Source: Thermogladius calderae 1633 (GTDB taxonomy: Archaea; Thermoproteota; Thermoprotei_A; Sulfolobales; Desulfurococcaceae). From it: 64,000 nucleotides of DNA. Positions 28,926 through 36,772 of the stretch are shown in pieces. Each line of letters starts with the position of its first letter. Position 1 is the first letter of the stretch. The notes below the pieces were generated by a model. It made no database searches. It worked only from the letters and a program-made list of their open reading frames with translations, and had not been told where the DNA came from. The translations under genes and the position numbers were made by a program. The stretch is from the NCBI RefSeq assembly GCF_000264495.1, contig NC_017954.1, positions 248,001-312,000 of the forward strand, read 5' to 3'.

Positions 28926-30329
28926 CTACCGCTCTCCAAACTCTCTCCTGTACTTGTCTGCCAGGGTCTGGCTCCAGTTACCCACGTCTCTTAGTCTGCC
29001 AAGGAAGAACCTGAGGACGGGCGGCTCGTAAACCCACTCGAGCCCCTTGACTACGTCTCTGTTCTCGTAGAGCCATACAAGCCTGTCCACGAGGTACTCT
29101 ACGTGGCTTCTCAAGTAAGTCTTCCTCGGGAATGCTAGTCTCATTAGCTCGAGGGCTGGGTACTCCTCTCTCCCGTCAGGTAGCCTGTCGTTGGATATAG
29201 CACCTCGCTCCATCCCCCTGATGCCGGACGCTATGTAGAAGGCGGCCGTTAAAGCCCCCGCGGGGTACCTATTGCGGGGGACGTTCTCTAGGAACTTCAA
29301 CGCGTCAACGTGGATGCCGAGACCGCCTGGTGGTTTAACAACGGGTACACCCGCCTTATCTAGCTCCCTTACACCGTATCTTATGAGCTCTATCTCGGAC
29401 CCTATCAACTCTTCTTCGGTTAGCTGCCTTAGACCCATTGCGAGAGCTGCGATCTCCTTGACAGACATACCGCCGTAGGATAGGAAGCCCTCGAAAACCG
29501 GGAGTAGTACGGCTATTTTCTCGTAGAGCTCTCTATTGTTTGTAGCAAGTAGACCCCCTCTAACCGAGCCCGCTTTACGTGCACTCATGTAGAATACGTC
29601 GGCGTGACTGGCGAACTCTTTAATTATCTTGCCGAGAGGCCAAGACCCTAGTTCGCGTTCCTTTACGAAGTAGGAGTTCCAGTCTATCATACTACCGTCT
29701 ATAACTAGTGGTACACCATACCTCTCGCAGATCTCTTTGACCAGCTTAATGTTCTCCATCGAAACAGGCTGACCGCCTAGGAGGTTCGCGAGCGCCTCGA
29801 CTCTGACGAACGCCGTCCTCTCGTGGTTACGTGCCAGGAACTCCTCTAGCCTCACGGTATCCATGTTGCCCTTGAACGGGTGTTCGCTGGACGCGTCGAG
29901 CGCCTCCGGGATGGGCAGCTCCACTAGAACCCCTCCCGCGAGCTCGACGTGGGCTCTGGTCGTAGTGAAGTGGAAGTTGGTGACCACGAAACTACCCTGT
30001 CTTACGAGCGTCCTCGCTATCAAGTGCTCGGCGGCCCGGCCCTGGTGGACCGGTAGTGTGTACTTGAAGCCGAGCACTTCCTCCACCGCCCTCGCAAGCT
30101 CCTCGTAGGTGTTGCTACCGGCGTACGCGTCTTGGGCACTTACCATGCCGGCCAGCTGCTCAACGGTCATAGCGTTAACTCCGCTGTCTGTCAACATGTC
30201 TAGGAACACGTCGTCGGCTTTCAGTAAGAAGGTGTTAAACCCTGCTTCTCTAATAGCGAGCAGTCTTTCTTCCAAGGATGGGAACCTAATCTTCTCTACG
30301 ACGCGTACTCTGAACCCTTCTACCCGAAT
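28926..30329 (-). CDS. Tryptophanase / tyrosine phenol-lyase family PLP enzyme, probable ATT start
   Basis: This PLP-dependent beta-eliminating lyase would split tryptophan (or tyrosine) to indole (or phenol), pyruvate and ammonia. Family motifs are L-T-D-S-G-V-N-A-M, D-A-Y-A-G-S, the H-Q-G-R-A-A-E site, D-G-S-M-I-D and the PLP Lys in M-S-A-R-K-A-G-S. The first standard start (TTG 30275) cuts into homologous sequence: F-R-V-R-V-V-E-K-I precedes it, as at the N-terminus of this family. No ATG, GTG or TTG lies between the upstream stop and 30275. ATT 30329 has GGGGG about 5-9 nt upstream and lies close to the transcript start predicted from a TATA element near 30350, giving 467 residues. Confidence 0.88.
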   Translation of the reverse strand: MRVEGFRVRVVEKIRFPSLEERLLAIREAGFNTFLLKADDVFLDMLTDSGVNAMTVEQLAGMVSAQDAYAGSNTYEELARAVEEVLGFKYTLPVHQGRAAEHLIARTLVRQGSFVVTNFHFTTTRAHVELAGGVLVELPIPEALDASSEHPFKGNMDTVRLEEFLARNHERTAFVRVEALANLLGGQPVSMENIKLVKEICERYGVPLVIDGSMIDWNSYFVKERELGSWPLGKIIKEFASHADVFYMSARKAGSVRGGLLATNNRELYEKIAVLLPVFEGFLSYGGMSVKEIAALAMGLRQLTEEELIGSEIELIRYGVRELDKAGVPVVKPPGGLGIHVDALKFLENVPRNRYPAGALTAAFYIASGIRGMERGAISNDRLPDGREEYPALELMRLAFPRKTYLRSHVEYLVDRLVWLYENRDVVKGLEWVYEPPVLRFFLGRLRDVGNWSQTLADKYRREFGER

Positions 30330-30437: not shown

Positions 30438-32372
30438 CTACGCGCTAAAGACGTCTTCCGGCGTTGGTAGCTCCTTCCTCACTTTCTCGAGTAACCTCAA
30501 GTAGTACCCAAGGTCTATGTCCTCGGCGCCGGCCTCCTCGTCGTAGACGGCGAGACCACTCTTCAGCGCGATTAACTGGTGTGCCGCGCCGTCTCCTTCC
30601 AGGACGTACCTGGGCGGCCTCTTGTAGGAGCCTCTCGCACGCCTAGACCTAGTCATGAGGAGGAGCCTAACGTCGACGTTCTCTAACAGCCTCCTCTCAT
30701 AGTCCTTCACGACGTCGTAGGCGGCGCTAAGAGCCTCGGCCATGCTCGAGGGGTCTCTCGCCTCGGTCAACTTACTGAACGCTTCAAGCTCTGCCTGTCT
30801 CACGATCTCGGGGGTATCCCTCCTGACGGCTAGTACACCCTTTATCTTCAAGCCCCCCTCGTGGAGTAACCCGTAGTACCTGTTGGCTACGCCCCTGCTA
30901 CCGTTTAGTTCTCTGGGGAGGTACAGCCACACGTAGTAGGCCTCTACCTTAGTCTTGTAACCAGTAGCCCTCTCTATGGCCGTGGCCAGCTCCGCGCAGT
31001 ACTCCGCGTCGGCTACACCACCTATGAACAGGCTGTCTACAATGGCGTGCACTACTTTGTAGCCCCTCTTGGCGACTTCCTCCGAGGCTCTCTTCATTAT
31101 CTCTCTACTCGTAGCCGTGACAGCTTCGTGCGCCATTATAGAGCCGAACAAGCTGTTCCTGTAGCCTAGATAGCCGAAGCTGGCCACAAGAAGCCACTTA
31201 ACAGCACTCCTCCTTTCATAGTACAGTTCGTCGCCTGTAGCCTCGTAGAGCTGCTCGTAGAGCTCTTTCAGCTCTAGCAGTCTCTCCAGGCTCATAGGAA
31301 CGACCCCTCTCCTGTCCACGCATACCTCTTTGGCGGCGTAGTCTAGGCTTATTCTGCTACCGCAACCAGGGTCGTTCACAGTCTCGCCCGAGATGTTCAG
31401 TTTGGCAATAATAGACGGGTAGAGACTCTTGAAATCGACCTGGCACACCCCCCAGTAAAGGCCCGGCCTAGGCTTAAACACCACGCCTCCGCGGTCGAGT
31501 AACATCAGGTCTGTTATCCGCCTAAAATACTCCGGCCTAGAGTGGTCTTTCCTGACAATGTACCTCAAGTCTCTAGACACGAGCACCTCGATGGTAGTGA
31601 GCAGTCTACCTATCGTAACGTTGTTCATGAGGCTTAGTGGTGTGAAAGACAGCCTAGACCACTCGAAGTACTCGTGGGGGCTGAAAGCGCCTCCTAGAAC
31701 CCACTTCCCAACAGACTTATTCACCTCCGGGTACGTCGATACAAGCCTGAGATAAACACTGGGCTCCGTGAACACTAGTAGTGGCTGGTACTCGGCTATG
31801 TAGACAGCCAGGTCCCTCACAGTATGGAACTTAACGGGGGTCTTACCGCCGATTAGGTAGGCCCCGTTCCTGACGTCCACGACCAAACTCCTGAGACCAG
31901 GGTCTCTCTCGCTAGGCCTCCAAGCTGTGGTAAAACCCTTGCTGGTCTCGCAGACCCTGGTTAGAGGTCTAACACCCCTCTTGTACAGGGACTCGACCAA
32001 CGGGTGAGGGTACTTGTTGACCGGTCTCAAGCCCCTCTTCTCGGCGGTACTCGTGATCCTTCTCAGCTCGTGTAAGCTCTTGACAGAGAAGACCACTATC
32101 TCCTCTCTATCCCTGTAGTAGGGTGGTGTAAACCACTCCTCGACCCACGCGTTCTCTACGATACCCTCGTAGACAAGCTCCCTGGATACAGCGTACGGGT
32201 CGGGTGCCTCTATGTAACCGTAGAAGCGCAGGCCGACTGGCAGCTCTCTGACCACGCCAGAGCTTTCGTCGAATAGCTCTAGGACGACGCCTCCACTAGG
32301 CGATGGTCTCGCGTCTAGGATCCATAGCCCTCTCTCTTTGTTGTTACACTCACTTACACTGTTTACCTTCAT
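30438..32372 (-). CDS. dpo2: Inactivated family B DNA polymerase, Dpo2/PolB2 type
   Basis: The 644-residue protein keeps the family B layout, but key residues are changed. Motif A is intact (D-F-K-S-L-Y-P-S-I-I, Asp 313). Motif B keeps its Lys (392), but the usual N-S-x-Y-G reads V-A-S-F-G. Motif C, normally Y-G-D-T-D-S, reads H-A-I-V-D-S, so the first catalytic Asp is Ile 444 while Asp 446 remains. The exonuclease D-I-E motif is absent (V-V-D-V-R near 165). Crenarchaeal Dpo2 enzymes carry such disrupted motifs and are linked to damage tolerance in Sulfolobus. It overlaps the small gene upstream by 23 nt and forms a three-gene cassette. Confidence 0.85.
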   Translation of the reverse strand: MKVNSVSECNNKERGLWILDARPSPSGGVVLELFDESSGVVRELPVGLRFYGYIEAPDPYAVSRELVYEGIVENAWVEEWFTPPYYRDREEIVVFSVKSLHELRRITSTAEKRGLRPVNKYPHPLVESLYKRGVRPLTRVCETSKGFTTAWRPSERDPGLRSLVVDVRNGAYLIGGKTPVKFHTVRDLAVYIAEYQPLLVFTEPSVYLRLVSTYPEVNKSVGKWVLGGAFSPHEYFEWSRLSFTPLSLMNNVTIGRLLTTIEVLVSRDLRYIVRKDHSRPEYFRRITDLMLLDRGGVVFKPRPGLYWGVCQVDFKSLYPSIIAKLNISGETVNDPGCGSRISLDYAAKEVCVDRRGVVPMSLERLLELKELYEQLYEATGDELYYERRSAVKWLLVASFGYLGYRNSLFGSIMAHEAVTATSREIMKRASEEVAKRGYKVVHAIVDSLFIGGVADAEYCAELATAIERATGYKTKVEAYYVWLYLPRELNGSRGVANRYYGLLHEGGLKIKGVLAVRRDTPEIVRQAELEAFSKLTEARDPSSMAEALSAAYDVVKDYERRLLENVDVRLLLMTRSRRARGSYKRPPRYVLEGDGAAHQLIALKSGLAVYDEEAGAEDIDLGYYLRLLEKVRKELPTPEDVFSA

Positions 32373-32595
32373 ACTCCGCCTTTAGCTCCGCTATTACGAG
32401 TAAAAGATGGAAAACGAGAGGCTCTAGGGGGTCCACGACGCCCTTGTACGACAATAGGGAGGCCGAATAATCAGCCCTCTCGAGAACCTCCTTGACCGCG
32501 GCCCTAGTACAGGGGTCTAGTAGTGGTAGTAGGCTAGACCACCTCTCCAGGTACTTGTTGACGAGCTCCTTGAGAGAAGGGGTTGTCCTACCCAA
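32350..32595 (-). CDS. Small helical protein of the dpo2 cassette
   Basis: The 81-residue, mostly alpha-helical protein is Leu-rich, with one Cys pair far apart (C-T-R near residue 28, C-K at the end). Its start abuts the stop of the RadA-like gene without spacing and its end overlaps dpo2 by 23 nt, so the three are translated together. In Sulfolobus a small protein accompanies Dpo2 and a RadA-like protein; I assign this one to that role by context only. Confidence 0.65.
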   Translation of the reverse strand: MGRTTPSLKELVNKYLERWSSLLPLLDPCTRAAVKEVLERADYSASLLSYKGVVDPLEPLVFHLLLVIAELKAEYEGKQCK

Positions 32596-33267
32596 TCAGC
32601 CCACTCTCACCCAGTTCAGTAAGCTAACAGTGTCGACGGGGGCGGTCTTCTCCTTGAGTAGCTCGACTCTGAAAAGCCTCCTCAGGCCAGTGGGCTTCGC
32701 GGGGTGTTTTACGAGCTCTGCTACCACGCTCCTTCCCAGCCTCTCGACTCTGAGTATAACCTCGACTACATGGTGGTGCATACTACCGCCCTCCGGCATC
32801 CTCGATCCAAACCTCGTTGTAGTGTTAAAGATGAGAACGGTGTTCTCTGCCGATACCCTGTTTATAAGCCCCGATATCTCGGTAGCCTCGTAGTAGGTCG
32901 AGGGGTCGTCTCCTAGGAAGTTGTAGGGGTATAGAAGGATGACCGTAGAGTCTCTTACACCTGTCAGGCTCTCTAGTATGCGTACGACGTCTCTTGATTT
33001 GAAAGCCCTGCTAATACTTACAGCTGTCAGCCTACAGTCGAAGACCCTACAAAACGCCTCTACGAGGTCTGTCCTGATACCTCCGAACTCTAGAGAGACG
33101 ACTACATAGACCTGGCCTCGCCTACTCTGTATTGCTATAGACCTGTGAAACAGGTAATCTAGAACGTAAGAGTCCCCGTAGAACTCTATACTCCAGTACC
33201 TGCCAACCGGGTTCAAGAGGTCGTCTACCGGCCTCAAGCCTGTTATAATCACTTTCGATGACCTCAC
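32596..33267 (-). CDS. RadA/RecA-like protein without a Walker A motif
   Basis: The 223-residue protein follows the RadA core outline: V-D-D-L-L at the start, I-E-F-Y-G-D at the position of the P-loop, and L2/C-terminal sequence resembling RadA (R-F-G-S-R-M-P-E-G-G, then V-K-H-P-A-K-P-T-G, then F-R-V-E). The P-loop G-x-x-x-x-G-K-T has been lost (G-D-S-Y-V-L-D-Y), so ATP binding is unlikely. Its arrangement before an inactivated polymerase is analogous to the RecA-like ImuA of bacterial mutasomes. GTG 33267, nearly leaderless behind a TATA element (TTTATTAAAG, about 33279-33288). Confidence 0.75.
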   Translation of the reverse strand: MRSSKVIITGLRPVDDLLNPVGRYWSIEFYGDSYVLDYLFHRSIAIQSRRGQVYVVVSLEFGGIRTDLVEAFCRVFDCRLTAVSISRAFKSRDVVRILESLTGVRDSTVILLYPYNFLGDDPSTYYEATEISGLINRVSAENTVLIFNTTTRFGSRMPEGGSMHHHVVEVILRVERLGRSVVAELVKHPAKPTGLRRLFRVELLKEKTAPVDTVSLLNWVRVG

Positions 33268-33278
33268 TATACTCGGCT

Positions 33279-33288
33279 TTAATAAAGA
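33279..33288 (-). promoter_or_regulatory. TATA box of the dpo2 cassette
   Basis: TTTATTAAAG on the reverse strand, about 12-21 nt upstream of GTG 33267. The short distance suggests a leaderless transcript, or that the true start codon lies slightly downstream. No damage-response hexamer is obvious by eye beside it. Confidence 0.4.
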
Positions 33289-33361
33289 GGGGTAGAGACG
33301 GCCGAAACTTTCACTCTGTCCGAAGCTAAACGTTATTTCTTAGCGTCTACAATACTGATAG

Positions 33362-33844
33362 TTGGTGGTCTTGTTGGAGGACCTCGTGAGGCTTTTCCAG
33401 GAGTACTCCGAGGTAGAGAAGAGGTACGCCGAGGAGCTCAAGTCCATAACGAGCAAGTTCAGGCACCCGCTTCTTAAGGCCTTGATAGAGAGCGTCGCGC
33501 AAGACTCCCTGAAACACTCGCTGATGTACCAGGCTCTAGCGGAGATAGCAAGGGGTGGGCTACCACTCTTAACGGAAGAGGAGCTGGAGTACATTAGGGA
33601 GGGCATCGTCAAGCACATACAAGCCGAGGCAGAGATGATCGCGAAGACTAAGAAGCTCCTGGAGGAGAGTAAGGAGCCCTACTCTAAGCTGATACTGGCG
33701 GCAATACTCGACGACGAGAAGAGGCACCATACACTCCTACTCGATATACACGACAAGGTGGCGGTGAAGGAGAAGTTCGGCGAAGAGGAGTTGTGGGACG
33801 CGGTATGGAAGGACAGCCCGTGGCACGGGACGCCGGGTGGGTGA
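33362..33844 (+). CDS. Ferritin-like diiron-domain protein
   Basis: About 160 residues of almost continuous helix. Metal-ligand-like residues are placed as in the ferritin/rubrerythrin superfamily: E-V-E-K-R-Y near the N-terminus, D-S-L-K-H-S-L-M-Y in helix 2, E-A-E-M-I in helix 3 and D-D-E-K-R-H-H in helix 4. It may handle peroxide or iron, but no rubredoxin domain is present. TTG 33362 or the following GTG 33365 is the start. It is divergent from the dpo2 cassette. Confidence 0.7.
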   Translation: MVVLLEDLVRLFQEYSEVEKRYAEELKSITSKFRHPLLKALIESVAQDSLKHSLMYQALAEIARGGLPLLTEEELEYIREGIVKHIQAEAEMIAKTKKLLEESKEPYSKLILAAILDDEKRHHTLLLDIHDKVAVKEKFGEEELWDAVWKDSPWHGTPGG

Positions 33845-33878: not shown

Positions 33879-35171
33879 TTAGTCTATCCAGTCGCCACCC
33901 TCTATCTTACTCGGTATGTACGTATCCGCGAGGAATTTCAGACCCTTACTGGCCATCGCCTCTATCTCGAGCTTGTTAAGGGTCTTGAAGAATATACAGA
34001 GTTCTCTGACCCAGTCCGGAGTTCTAAACCACGGGTAGCCCGTAAGACCCTCCTTCTTTTTGAGCTTAGACCTGAGCTCGGAGCTTTCTACGCACTTGTC
34101 AGCTACATCGTACCCCACGAGCTCCACCGCGCGCTCGACGTCGCGTTGTTTCGCCTTTATAACGTAGTTCCTCCTCTCGCTCTCCGACAAGTAGGGCTTC
34201 TTCTTGAGCTTGCCCAGAGTAGTTCTAGTGAACCCGCCTACCTCCTTGACTTCGTCTAGAACCTTGCGGAAGACCTCGTCACCGAAGACGTCCGTCATAG
34301 AGACGCCTATAAACCTAGCATTAGGAGTAGCGAGCCTCTCGCTCTCGTAGGAGAGGGTTATAGAACCTATCTTGAAGACGCTGTAGATGTAGAAACCGTA
34401 GGGGTCGCTGTCCGTCAACACGTAGACAGGCAATTTTAGCTCCTCGTTGAGCCTCCTAACAAACCTCCTCGTGGCCCTGTCGGGTTGCCCGGCGCTCGTG
34501 ACTAGTATGGCTCTGTACTTCCGCCAGAACCCGTACCTGTGGAGTTGCTGGAATACAGCGTCCTTCTCGACTACCAGCACGTACTCTGCGTCCACGTCTT
34601 TGAATTCCACCAGGTCGGGGGTGGGCTCGATCGAGTAGGCCCCGTGCCCCATTTTGCTCAAGTCTATCGTGTCATCGCCGCTCCTGATCACGAGGTTCCC
34701 TACTACCTTCCCTTTTTCCTTGCTTAGGATGAGCATCTCCTCTCTCAGGACGTTCATGAAGACCTCCAGGTCTCTTATGACGCTGTCGGACTCCTTCTGC
34801 TCGTCCCAGGTGTTCTCGTGCACCATCTTCCCGTCTACGTCTCTGTACCCTATACTGTGCTTACCCCTGTAGTACAAGTCACGTATAGTGGGGTACTCGT
34901 TGTTGACTAGTGCCTCGTATATTATGGAGGCCATTAAGAGGGTCTGCATGAACTTCCTAGCCTCGTTTACGTCGATGAGCGACCTCCTAAGCACGTCGGG
35001 GCCCAGGAGGAGCATTTTGTTCTTCTCGTCGTAGATCGTGTTGGACAGGACCCTCTTGGGCATGACTAGAATCGGCTTCTCGCCTCTCTGTATCTGGTCT
35101 AGTATGATCTTGAACTTCTCCTTCAACACACCTATAGCGTTCATCCTCGCCTTAACGTCTACACTCGACAT
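33879..35171 (-). CDS. top6A: DNA topoisomerase VI subunit A
   Basis: The 430-residue subunit cuts both DNA strands and is related to Spo11. The catalytic Tyr lies in T-I-R-D-L-Y-Y-R-G-K-H (about residues 96-106), and the Toprim acidic residues are seen in V-V-E-K-D-A-V-F and L-T-D-S-D-P-Y-G. It follows top6B by about 11 nt; together they make the A2B2 enzyme that relaxes supercoils and decatenates replicated DNA. Confidence 0.97.
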   Translation of the reverse strand: MSSVDVKARMNAIGVLKEKFKIILDQIQRGEKPILVMPKRVLSNTIYDEKNKMLLLGPDVLRRSLIDVNEARKFMQTLLMASIIYEALVNNEYPTIRDLYYRGKHSIGYRDVDGKMVHENTWDEQKESDSVIRDLEVFMNVLREEMLILSKEKGKVVGNLVIRSGDDTIDLSKMGHGAYSIEPTPDLVEFKDVDAEYVLVVEKDAVFQQLHRYGFWRKYRAILVTSAGQPDRATRRFVRRLNEELKLPVYVLTDSDPYGFYIYSVFKIGSITLSYESERLATPNARFIGVSMTDVFGDEVFRKVLDEVKEVGGFTRTTLGKLKKKPYLSESERRNYVIKAKQRDVERAVELVGYDVADKCVESSELRSKLKKKEGLTGYPWFRTPDWVRELCIFFKTLNKLEIEAMASKGLKFLADTYIPSKIEGGDWID

Positions 35172-35182
35172 AGATGCCCCTC

Positions 35183-36772
35183 CTAAGCACCTATCTCGAC
35201 GCCCCTGATTACCTCGTTGATCTTGTTCTCTGGTATACCTGTTTTAGCCGATATAATCCCTACGAGCTTCTTTACGAGGGTGCCCTTGTCAAACCCGTCC
35301 CCGGAGAATATTACCTCGAGAGACCTAGCGATCTCCGGTATGTACTTGGCTAAGTGCACTACCTTCCTCTGCGTCTCCAGCTCTTTCTGCTTAGCCGTTA
35401 AGTACCCTCTGAGCCTCCTGGCGACCTCCGAGATGGCGAGCTTGATCTCCCTACGGACTTCGGGTACGTCTGCTATGCTCTCCTTGCCGACGCCCTTAAA
35501 CGGCACTTTCGTGCTACAAACGTGTACCAGTAGCACTAGCTGGGCTGGGAAAGCCACCATGTAGTTGTCCCATGCGATGTCCTCCTTAACAACGCTAGTT
35601 ATCACGTCGCTACCCTCGTCGTAGAGTAGCGGTATTTTGTTCGCGTACCTCAGTAGAATCGGTTTGTCGGCCTCGCTGAGCGGGACTTTACCGCCGTAGG
35701 CTATCCCCGCCTCTACTATGAACGGGTGTCCTTCGTAGGTCGACGGCTTCCTTGTTACAGCGTCCACGAACTCCGGCTCGAACATCCTTGTAAGCCCGGC
35801 TTTTATGACCTCAACACCCAGGGGTGATATAGCCGAGCTTGACGGGGGTTTAAACTGGTTGTACGACTTCATCGTGTTGATCAGCCTGAGGAGGTCGTCT
35901 TCCTTCAAGTTCCTCGGGTTCGAGGAAGGGTCTATGCCCGCCTTCGACAAGAGGTCTTTAGCAGTTACTTCACCAACGCTCTGAAAGTTCTCGACTAGCA
36001 CTTCGAGTATCGTCGGCTCCTTGCCGGACTCTATGATCATCTTCAGCATCTCCAAGTCCACACCGTAGGGGTGCGGCTTGACCTCCTTCGGGGGTCTGGG
36101 CATGGTCTCTATGACCCTCTTATACAGGGTTACCTCGTTGTCGGGAGTGTACATGACTATGTTAGCGTAGGGCGTCACAGTAGCAGTCCTGTTGATGTAC
36201 TCCTTTATCCTAGCCTTGGCCTTTCCCCAGTCCCCCTCGATCGTGAGGGACACTATCGTGCCGTGCCAGTCCCTCTGCTTCCTCCAACTACCTCTCTCCA
36301 GTACCACGGGCTCGTTCTTGTTGATGTCTATCCTTATCTTAAAGAAGTAGATCCTCCTGTACTCCCTCTTGCTCGTGATCACCTCGATCGGTCTGCCGGT
36401 AGTCATCTGCCCGTATAGGACGGCCATCTTGACGCCCAGTCCGTACATGCCTCTCGTTTGTCTCAGGACGTACTTCGAGCTGAACAGAACCCTGCCGAAA
36501 GCGTTTGGCACTATATCGGGCGGTATACCTATACCGTTGTCCTCGACGGTTACTCTGTAGAACTCCTGAACCGGGTCTGCCCTCTGGATCACGACCTTTA
36601 TATCGGGCAGTATCCCGTGGGAGTCGGTGGCGTCGAGAGCGTTCTCGACCAGCTCCCTGACTGTCTGGTAGAGTGCTCTAGCAGGGTTGGCGAAGCCGGC
36701 TATCTCCTTGTACTTGTAGAAGAACTCCGCTGGGCTGATTGCCTTGTACTTCTCGACGGTCTCGCCCGACAA
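35183..36772 (-). CDS. top6B: DNA topoisomerase VI subunit B
   Basis: The 529-residue ATPase subunit has the GHKL (gyrase/Hsp90/histidine kinase/MutL) Bergerat fold: E-L-V-E-N-A-L-D-A-T-D (about residues 42-52), E-D-N-G-I-G-I-P, and G-M-Y-G-L-G-V-K-M. A helix-two-turns-helix and transducer region with the conserved switch Lys follow. First gene of the top6B-top6A operon. Confidence 0.97.
   Translation of the reverse strand: MSGETVEKYKAISPAEFFYKYKEIAGFANPARALYQTVRELVENALDATDSHGILPDIKVVIQRADPVQEFYRVTVEDNGIGIPPDIVPNAFGRVLFSSKYVLRQTRGMYGLGVKMAVLYGQMTTGRPIEVITSKREYRRIYFFKIRIDINKNEPVVLERGSWRKQRDWHGTIVSLTIEGDWGKAKARIKEYINRTATVTPYANIVMYTPDNEVTLYKRVIETMPRPPKEVKPHPYGVDLEMLKMIIESGKEPTILEVLVENFQSVGEVTAKDLLSKAGIDPSSNPRNLKEDDLLRLINTMKSYNQFKPPSSSAISPLGVEVIKAGLTRMFEPEFVDAVTRKPSTYEGHPFIVEAGIAYGGKVPLSEADKPILLRYANKIPLLYDEGSDVITSVVKEDIAWDNYMVAFPAQLVLLVHVCSTKVPFKGVGKESIADVPEVRREIKLAISEVARRLRGYLTAKQKELETQRKVVHLAKYIPEIARSLEVIFSGDGFDKGTLVKKLVGIISAKTGIPENKINEVIRGVEIGA

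Follow-up and report, generated by a model that had tools for sequence, protein, structure and literature searches.

A probable PolB2 translesion-synthesis operon with a damage-response-like promoter element in Thermogladius calderae

Gene content and synteny of the locus

Three consecutive minus-strand genes in the 64,000-nucleotide window analyzed here (positions 248,001 to 312,000 of the Thermogladius calderae 1633 genome, a single contig of 1,356,318 bases) encode a RadA-like protein, an 81-amino acid protein with the N-terminus MGRT, and a 644-amino acid B-family polymerase. Unless stated otherwise, coordinates refer to this window. The first gene, iRadA (32596–33252, minus strand), encodes a RadA/Rad51 fold without a Walker A motif; its TGA stop codon abuts the TTG start codon of ppb2 (32350–32595, minus strand), an arCOG07300-type gene for a helical PolB2 partner. 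The latter overlaps by 23 nt with the ATG-initiated polymerase gene, polB2 or dpo2 (30438–32372, minus strand), so that the ORF coordinates bear out the abutting and overlapping arrangement described in the original prediction. Although the longest ORF call for iRadA spans 32596–33267 (minus strand), translation probably begins at the GTG at 33252 and not at the GTG at 33267, because the related locus L067 carries an in-frame stop immediately ahead of the corresponding codon, and because a putative TATA box, TTTATTAAA (33278–33286, minus strand), whose center precedes GTG 33252 by about 30 nt, fits a leaderless transcript starting there. Farther upstream lies a composite promoter element, AGTTTC-GGCCGT-CTCT (33294–33309, minus strand), whose hexamer is of the ANTTTC type known as the Sulfolobus DNA damage response element.

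The neighborhood contains genes for Topoisomerase VI subunits A and B just upstream (33879–36772, minus strand) and a beta-eliminating lyase of the tryptophanase/tyrosine phenol-lyase family just downstream (28926–30275, minus strand; NCBIfam, 505 bits). A small divergent gene with weak Rubrerythrin/ferritin-like similarity (33362–33844, plus strand) has its promoter region in common with the trio, and the relatives L066 and L067 have a similar stretch upstream, on the reverse strand.

With polB2, iRadA and ppb2 adjacent and in one orientation, the trio is a standard PolB2 mutasome operon (iRadA–PPB2–PolB2), a family that has already been described (PMC4104785, PMC11791011); the T. calderae 1633 PolB2 itself is named in PMC7390963. 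Across the class, a PolB2-grade match was present in 81 of 197 genomes. iRadA occurred in 69 of these 81 and in none of the 116 genomes without PolB2, and 65 of the 69 pairs lay within about 1.5 kb of each other; in some PolB2-only genomes, the polymerase gene sits at a contig end. PPB2, with the N-terminus GR[TSN], was found at 56 of 72 named genome loci. The position of iRadA varies, being upstream of polB2 in Desulfurococcaceae, and mostly downstream in the Sulfolobales sampled; in Thermosphaera types, it lies on the opposite strand. Because synteny is kept across dozens of genomes, the arrangement is not due to chance. The original prediction had proposed such a neighborhood survey and had made its case dependent on both partner genes accompanying dpo2 in other genomes, which they do.

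A damage-response-like element upstream of the operon

The hexamer AGTTTC (33304–33309, minus strand) fits ANTTTC and is located upstream of the putative TATA box of the trio. In S. acidocaldarius, ANTTTC is required for UV induction (PMC5817253), and in S. islandicus it is bound by Orc1-2 (PMC9738581); its Sulfolobus position is −44 to −39 from the transcription start site, directly before the BRE and TATA box (PMC5817253). The composite element is kept in all Thermogladius within an otherwise diverged spacer. Of 64 trio regions, 23 had ANTTTC between −75 and −40, compared with 3.8 ± 1.9 in dinucleotide shuffles, a comparison that ignores relatedness. The extended pattern ANTTTC-N6-CNC[TC] was found in 23 of 106 trio upstream regions, corresponding to 23 of 57 testable loci (again counted irrespective of relatedness), and in 0 of 254 control regions upstream of other genes at the same loci. 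A spacing of 6 nt between the hexamer and the second half is preferred. The composite is missing from 34 of the 57 loci, among them most of the distant ones. The same architecture, with a CTCTC extension, occurs in Sulfolobales orc1-2 promoters; orc1-2 is damage-induced in S. islandicus, where the dpo2 region is up 21–26-fold with NQO (PMC10470591).

Containing the Orc1-2-bound damage element of Sulfolobus, the promoter predicts damage induction outside Sulfolobales, and the T. calderae operon would accordingly be expected to respond to damage. A conserved damage-response-like element before a PolB2 operon outside Sulfolobales appears to be a new point: in the papers found, the Orc1-2/ANTTTC response is confined to Sulfolobales (PMC5817253, PMC9738581), and among open-licence papers we found no report of an ANTTTC-type element elsewhere. 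It is an even bet, in our judgment, that this response is older than Sulfolobales and controls the PolB2 mutasome in Desulfurococcaceae, Caldisphaera-type archaea and Calditenuaceae via ANTTTC-N6-C[TC]CTC, the trio operon being its most conspicuous target in the Y-polymerase-less Thermogladius.

The element is probably recognized by an Orc1-2-type protein. The second Orc1/Cdc6 gene of T. calderae (about 76186–77439 of the genome, minus strand; L138/L141) falls into the Orc1-2 clade, grouping with the Sulfolobales set that belongs to neither the Cdc6-1 nor the Cdc6-3 type; clade membership and the exclusion of these two types make it a likely Orc1-2. Unlike the Sulfolobales orc1-2 genes, it has no composite element upstream. 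AAAGTTTC, just before its start, was considered as an autoregulatory site and rejected because its counterpart in the alignment with Thermosphaera orc1-2 is coding sequence. The relative L066 (genome G037) has the trio and the element, but a single Orc was found there, of the Orc1-1 type; unless the assembly lacks an orc1-2 gene, this would speak against control by Orc1-2.

A tentative but quite possible alternative for the promoter is that AGTTTC...CTCT is part of the core promoter, or the site of an unrelated regulator, conserved by descent. Five fixed bases are frequent by chance, and about 17 nt separate the end of the hexamer from the TATA box, a longer distance than in Sulfolobus (PMC5817253). 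In addition, no regulon is seen in T. calderae: genome-wide, the composite has 14 matches compared with 23 for a reversed control pattern and is thus not enriched. The trio operon provides the one clear promoter match, and because nearly all others lie inside coding frames, we do not claim a T. calderae regulon. A second composite-like match at 33251–33265 (plus strand) was set aside, as L066 and L067 do not preserve it. Against a site of unrelated function stand the complete absence of the composite from the control upstream regions, its recurrence before the damage-inducible Sulfolobales orc1-2 genes and the preferred 6-nt spacing. The conserved element yields a directly testable prediction at the sequence level, namely that the archaeal damage response extends beyond Sulfolobales.

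The polymerase and its partner proteins

As stated in the original prediction, the polymerase is of the Dpo2 type and retains one Asp in motif C, which reads H442-A-I444-V-D446 with Ile444 in place of the first Asp. Asp313 of motif A, Lys392 of motif B and the second motif C Asp, Asp446, are all intact. The other two PolBs of the genome have YGDTDS in motif C and the exonuclease DxE, whereas no DxE was seen in the PolB2 sequence. The D(K/R) motif preceding motif A corresponds to D293-R294, in which the Asp is invariant; the region around K274-D275 was rejected for this role as it is not conserved. Asp313, Lys392, Asp446 and Asp293 are invariant in 102 of 102 relatives, His442 is kept in 97 of them, and position 444 is always I, L or M. 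In PolB2-like genes of Methanospirillum and Asgard archaea (L131, L132, L135), the motif C His is replaced by Y, A or G, and neither iRadA nor PPB2 was detected at these three loci.

The description of the polymerase as inactivated is unlikely to hold, because Asp313, Lys392 and Asp446 are kept and because Sulfolobus Dpo2, which has the same motif C substitution, equals the replicase in activity and can extend both mismatches and lesions (PMC8764526). How an enzyme with Ile444 acts had been left open, and this is in part answered, since in B-family structures the metal is held by the second motif C Asp (PMC8764526). The replacement for the first Asp is still at the candidate stage, with either the invariant His or the D(K/R) Asp proposed as a stand-in (PMC8764526). 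Because AlphaFold models place the D(K/R) Asp at the PPB2 arm (PMC11791011), His442 would be a better candidate for the active site than Asp293.

Purifying selection acts on all three genes: dN/dS was 0.15 for PolB2, 0.08 for PPB2 and 0.06 for iRadA in comparison with the 92%-identical relative L065, and 0.14 for PolB2 and 0.08 for iRadA in comparison with L066. This result also speaks against an inactivated polymerase, and it bears on the listing of T. calderae PolB2 in PMC7390963 as a variant ("mPolB2") with a 12-amino acid insertion in a high-G+C genome, from which one could suppose a decaying enzyme whose function has been lost or changed. We consider such decay very unlikely in view of three intact, selectively constrained genes and the retained catalytic residues; moreover, the anchor spacing between residues 200 and 560 is identical to that of Thermosphaera-type relatives, and the excess of 12–13 residues over Sulfolobales, located between motifs A and B, is common to the family members compared. 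The PolB2 mutasome is therefore intact here, despite the earlier classification of its polymerase as a variant. A search for Y-family polymerase genes that was positive in S. acidocaldarius found none in the T. calderae genome, and PolB2 may thus be the only bypass polymerase of this organism.

Single-sequence searches of Pfam, NCBIfam and the PDB with iRadA and PPB2 returned nothing useful, including no Pfam match for iRadA, while a profile search with iRadA ranked RadA chains first, albeit weakly (E 0.014). The RecA fold without a P-loop proposed for this protein was confirmed by hhalign against the genome's own RadA (184 columns, probability 60%, P 8e-5), with the Walker A lysine missing, and by an AlphaFold model (pLDDT 88.5) that matched RAD51, RadA and RecA structures, the RAD51/RadA chains with E about 1e-11. 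EFYGD-SYVL occupies the place of the RadA Walker A stretch EFFGEYGTGKT, and the nearly invariant motif PEGG[SN]xHHH aligns with the RadA GG....H stretch. iRadA thus comprises the RadA/Rad51 core fold and lacks the N-terminal domain and the ATPase residues. Its C-terminus, SLLNWV (32596–32640, minus strand), belongs to a pattern, [ST]LLxW[VI], that recurs at this position in Thermogladius and Thermosphaera types and may represent a degenerate PIP-like, PCNA-binding tail; among PolB2 mutasomes, clamp-binding motifs in iRadA or PolB2 are confined to some members. PPB2 was modeled as four helices (pLDDT 87.7), in agreement with the predicted small helical protein, and carries the MGRT N-terminus; Foldseek gave no significant match for it and did not reproduce the published resemblance to sigma factors.

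Based on these findings, we favor the interpretation that the trio is the PolB2 translesion-synthesis operon of T. calderae, encoding bypass machinery that acts as one complex and is expected to be damage-induced (probability about 0.88). The opposing proposal that the PolB2–iRadA–PPB2 complex regulates replication initiation or fork restart (suggested in PMC4104785), for which one could cite the inactive RadA partner and the fact that PolB2 neighborhoods of other archaea are linked to orc1/cdc6 genes (PMC4104785, PMC11791011), is very unlikely, as both T. calderae orc1 genes lie elsewhere and neither adjoins the trio, targeted mutagenesis in S. islandicus is carried out by Dpo2 (PMC7390963), and the active-site residues of PolB2 are kept.

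In the bypass model, iRadA, a PPB2 trimer and PolB2 would assemble into one heteropentameric complex. PolB2 would use a working two-Asp active site without proofreading to extend primer ends that are mismatched or carry lesions. iRadA is not expected to bind ATP and would serve as a structural subunit docked at the site of a RadA neighbor in the filament. One PPB2 subunit would insert its MGRT arm as a wedge between PolB2, iRadA and the DNA. Transcription would start at the iRadA initiation codon from a TATA promoter. A damage-response element upstream of it, of which an Orc1-2-type protein is the probable reader, would make the operon inducible by DNA damage. The model combines direct observations on T. 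calderae (gene content, synteny, conservation, fold, purifying selection and the promoter element) with polymerase activity, complex architecture and damage induction that we infer for Thermogladius from Sulfolobus and other published work.

Comparison with known systems

The closest counterpart is the PolB2 mutasome of Timinskas et al. 2025 (PMC11791011), which shares the three genes in the order iRadA–PPB2–PolB2, the MGRT arm, the D(K/R) motif, Ile for the first Asp and the P-loop-less RadA fold. T. calderae differs from it in nothing essential: its peculiarities are the TTG start of ppb2, the 23-nt overlap with polB2 and a PIP-like iRadA tail, SLLNWV, that departs from QxxLxxFF. With S. islandicus Dpo2 (PMC7390963, PMC8764526), the T. 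calderae enzyme has in common the family, the motif C change, the lack of an exonuclease and the operon partners, whereas its length is 644 amino acids compared with 540–582, iRadA lies upstream of polB2 and not downstream as in most Sulfolobales sampled, and S. islandicus also has Dpo4.

The mutasome likeness noted in the original prediction is real, although it is not new, since the cassette corresponds to the named PolB2 mutasome, which has been likened to E. coli Pol V (UmuD'2-UmuC-RecA) in PMC11791011. Both comprise a bypass polymerase that is joined by a RecA-family protein and by a small oligomeric protein, the N-terminal arm of which reaches the active site in published models; Pol V, however, has a Y-family polymerase, an active RecA and an unrelated small subunit. 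The likeness to bacterial ImuA-ImuB-DnaE2 consists in a RecA-like accessory protein beside a specialized polymerase. ImuA-ImuB-DnaE2 is damage-inducible, and in it an active C-family DnaE2 is accompanied by ImuB, an inactive Y-family protein. The analogy is loose because this system has two polymerase-like proteins, one of them inactive, whereas the T. calderae trio has a single one, of the B family and expected to be active, in a genome with no Y-family gene found; the trio may work somewhat like ImuA-ImuB-DnaE2 by analogy only and is not a member of it.

Finally, the promoter element shares with the Sulfolobales ANTTTC element (PMC5817253, PMC9738581) a hexamer upstream of the TATA box, and is distinguished from it by its Desulfurococcaceae or other non-Sulfolobales hosts, a preference for 6 nt between the hexamer and C[TC]CTC, and a longer distance to the TATA box.
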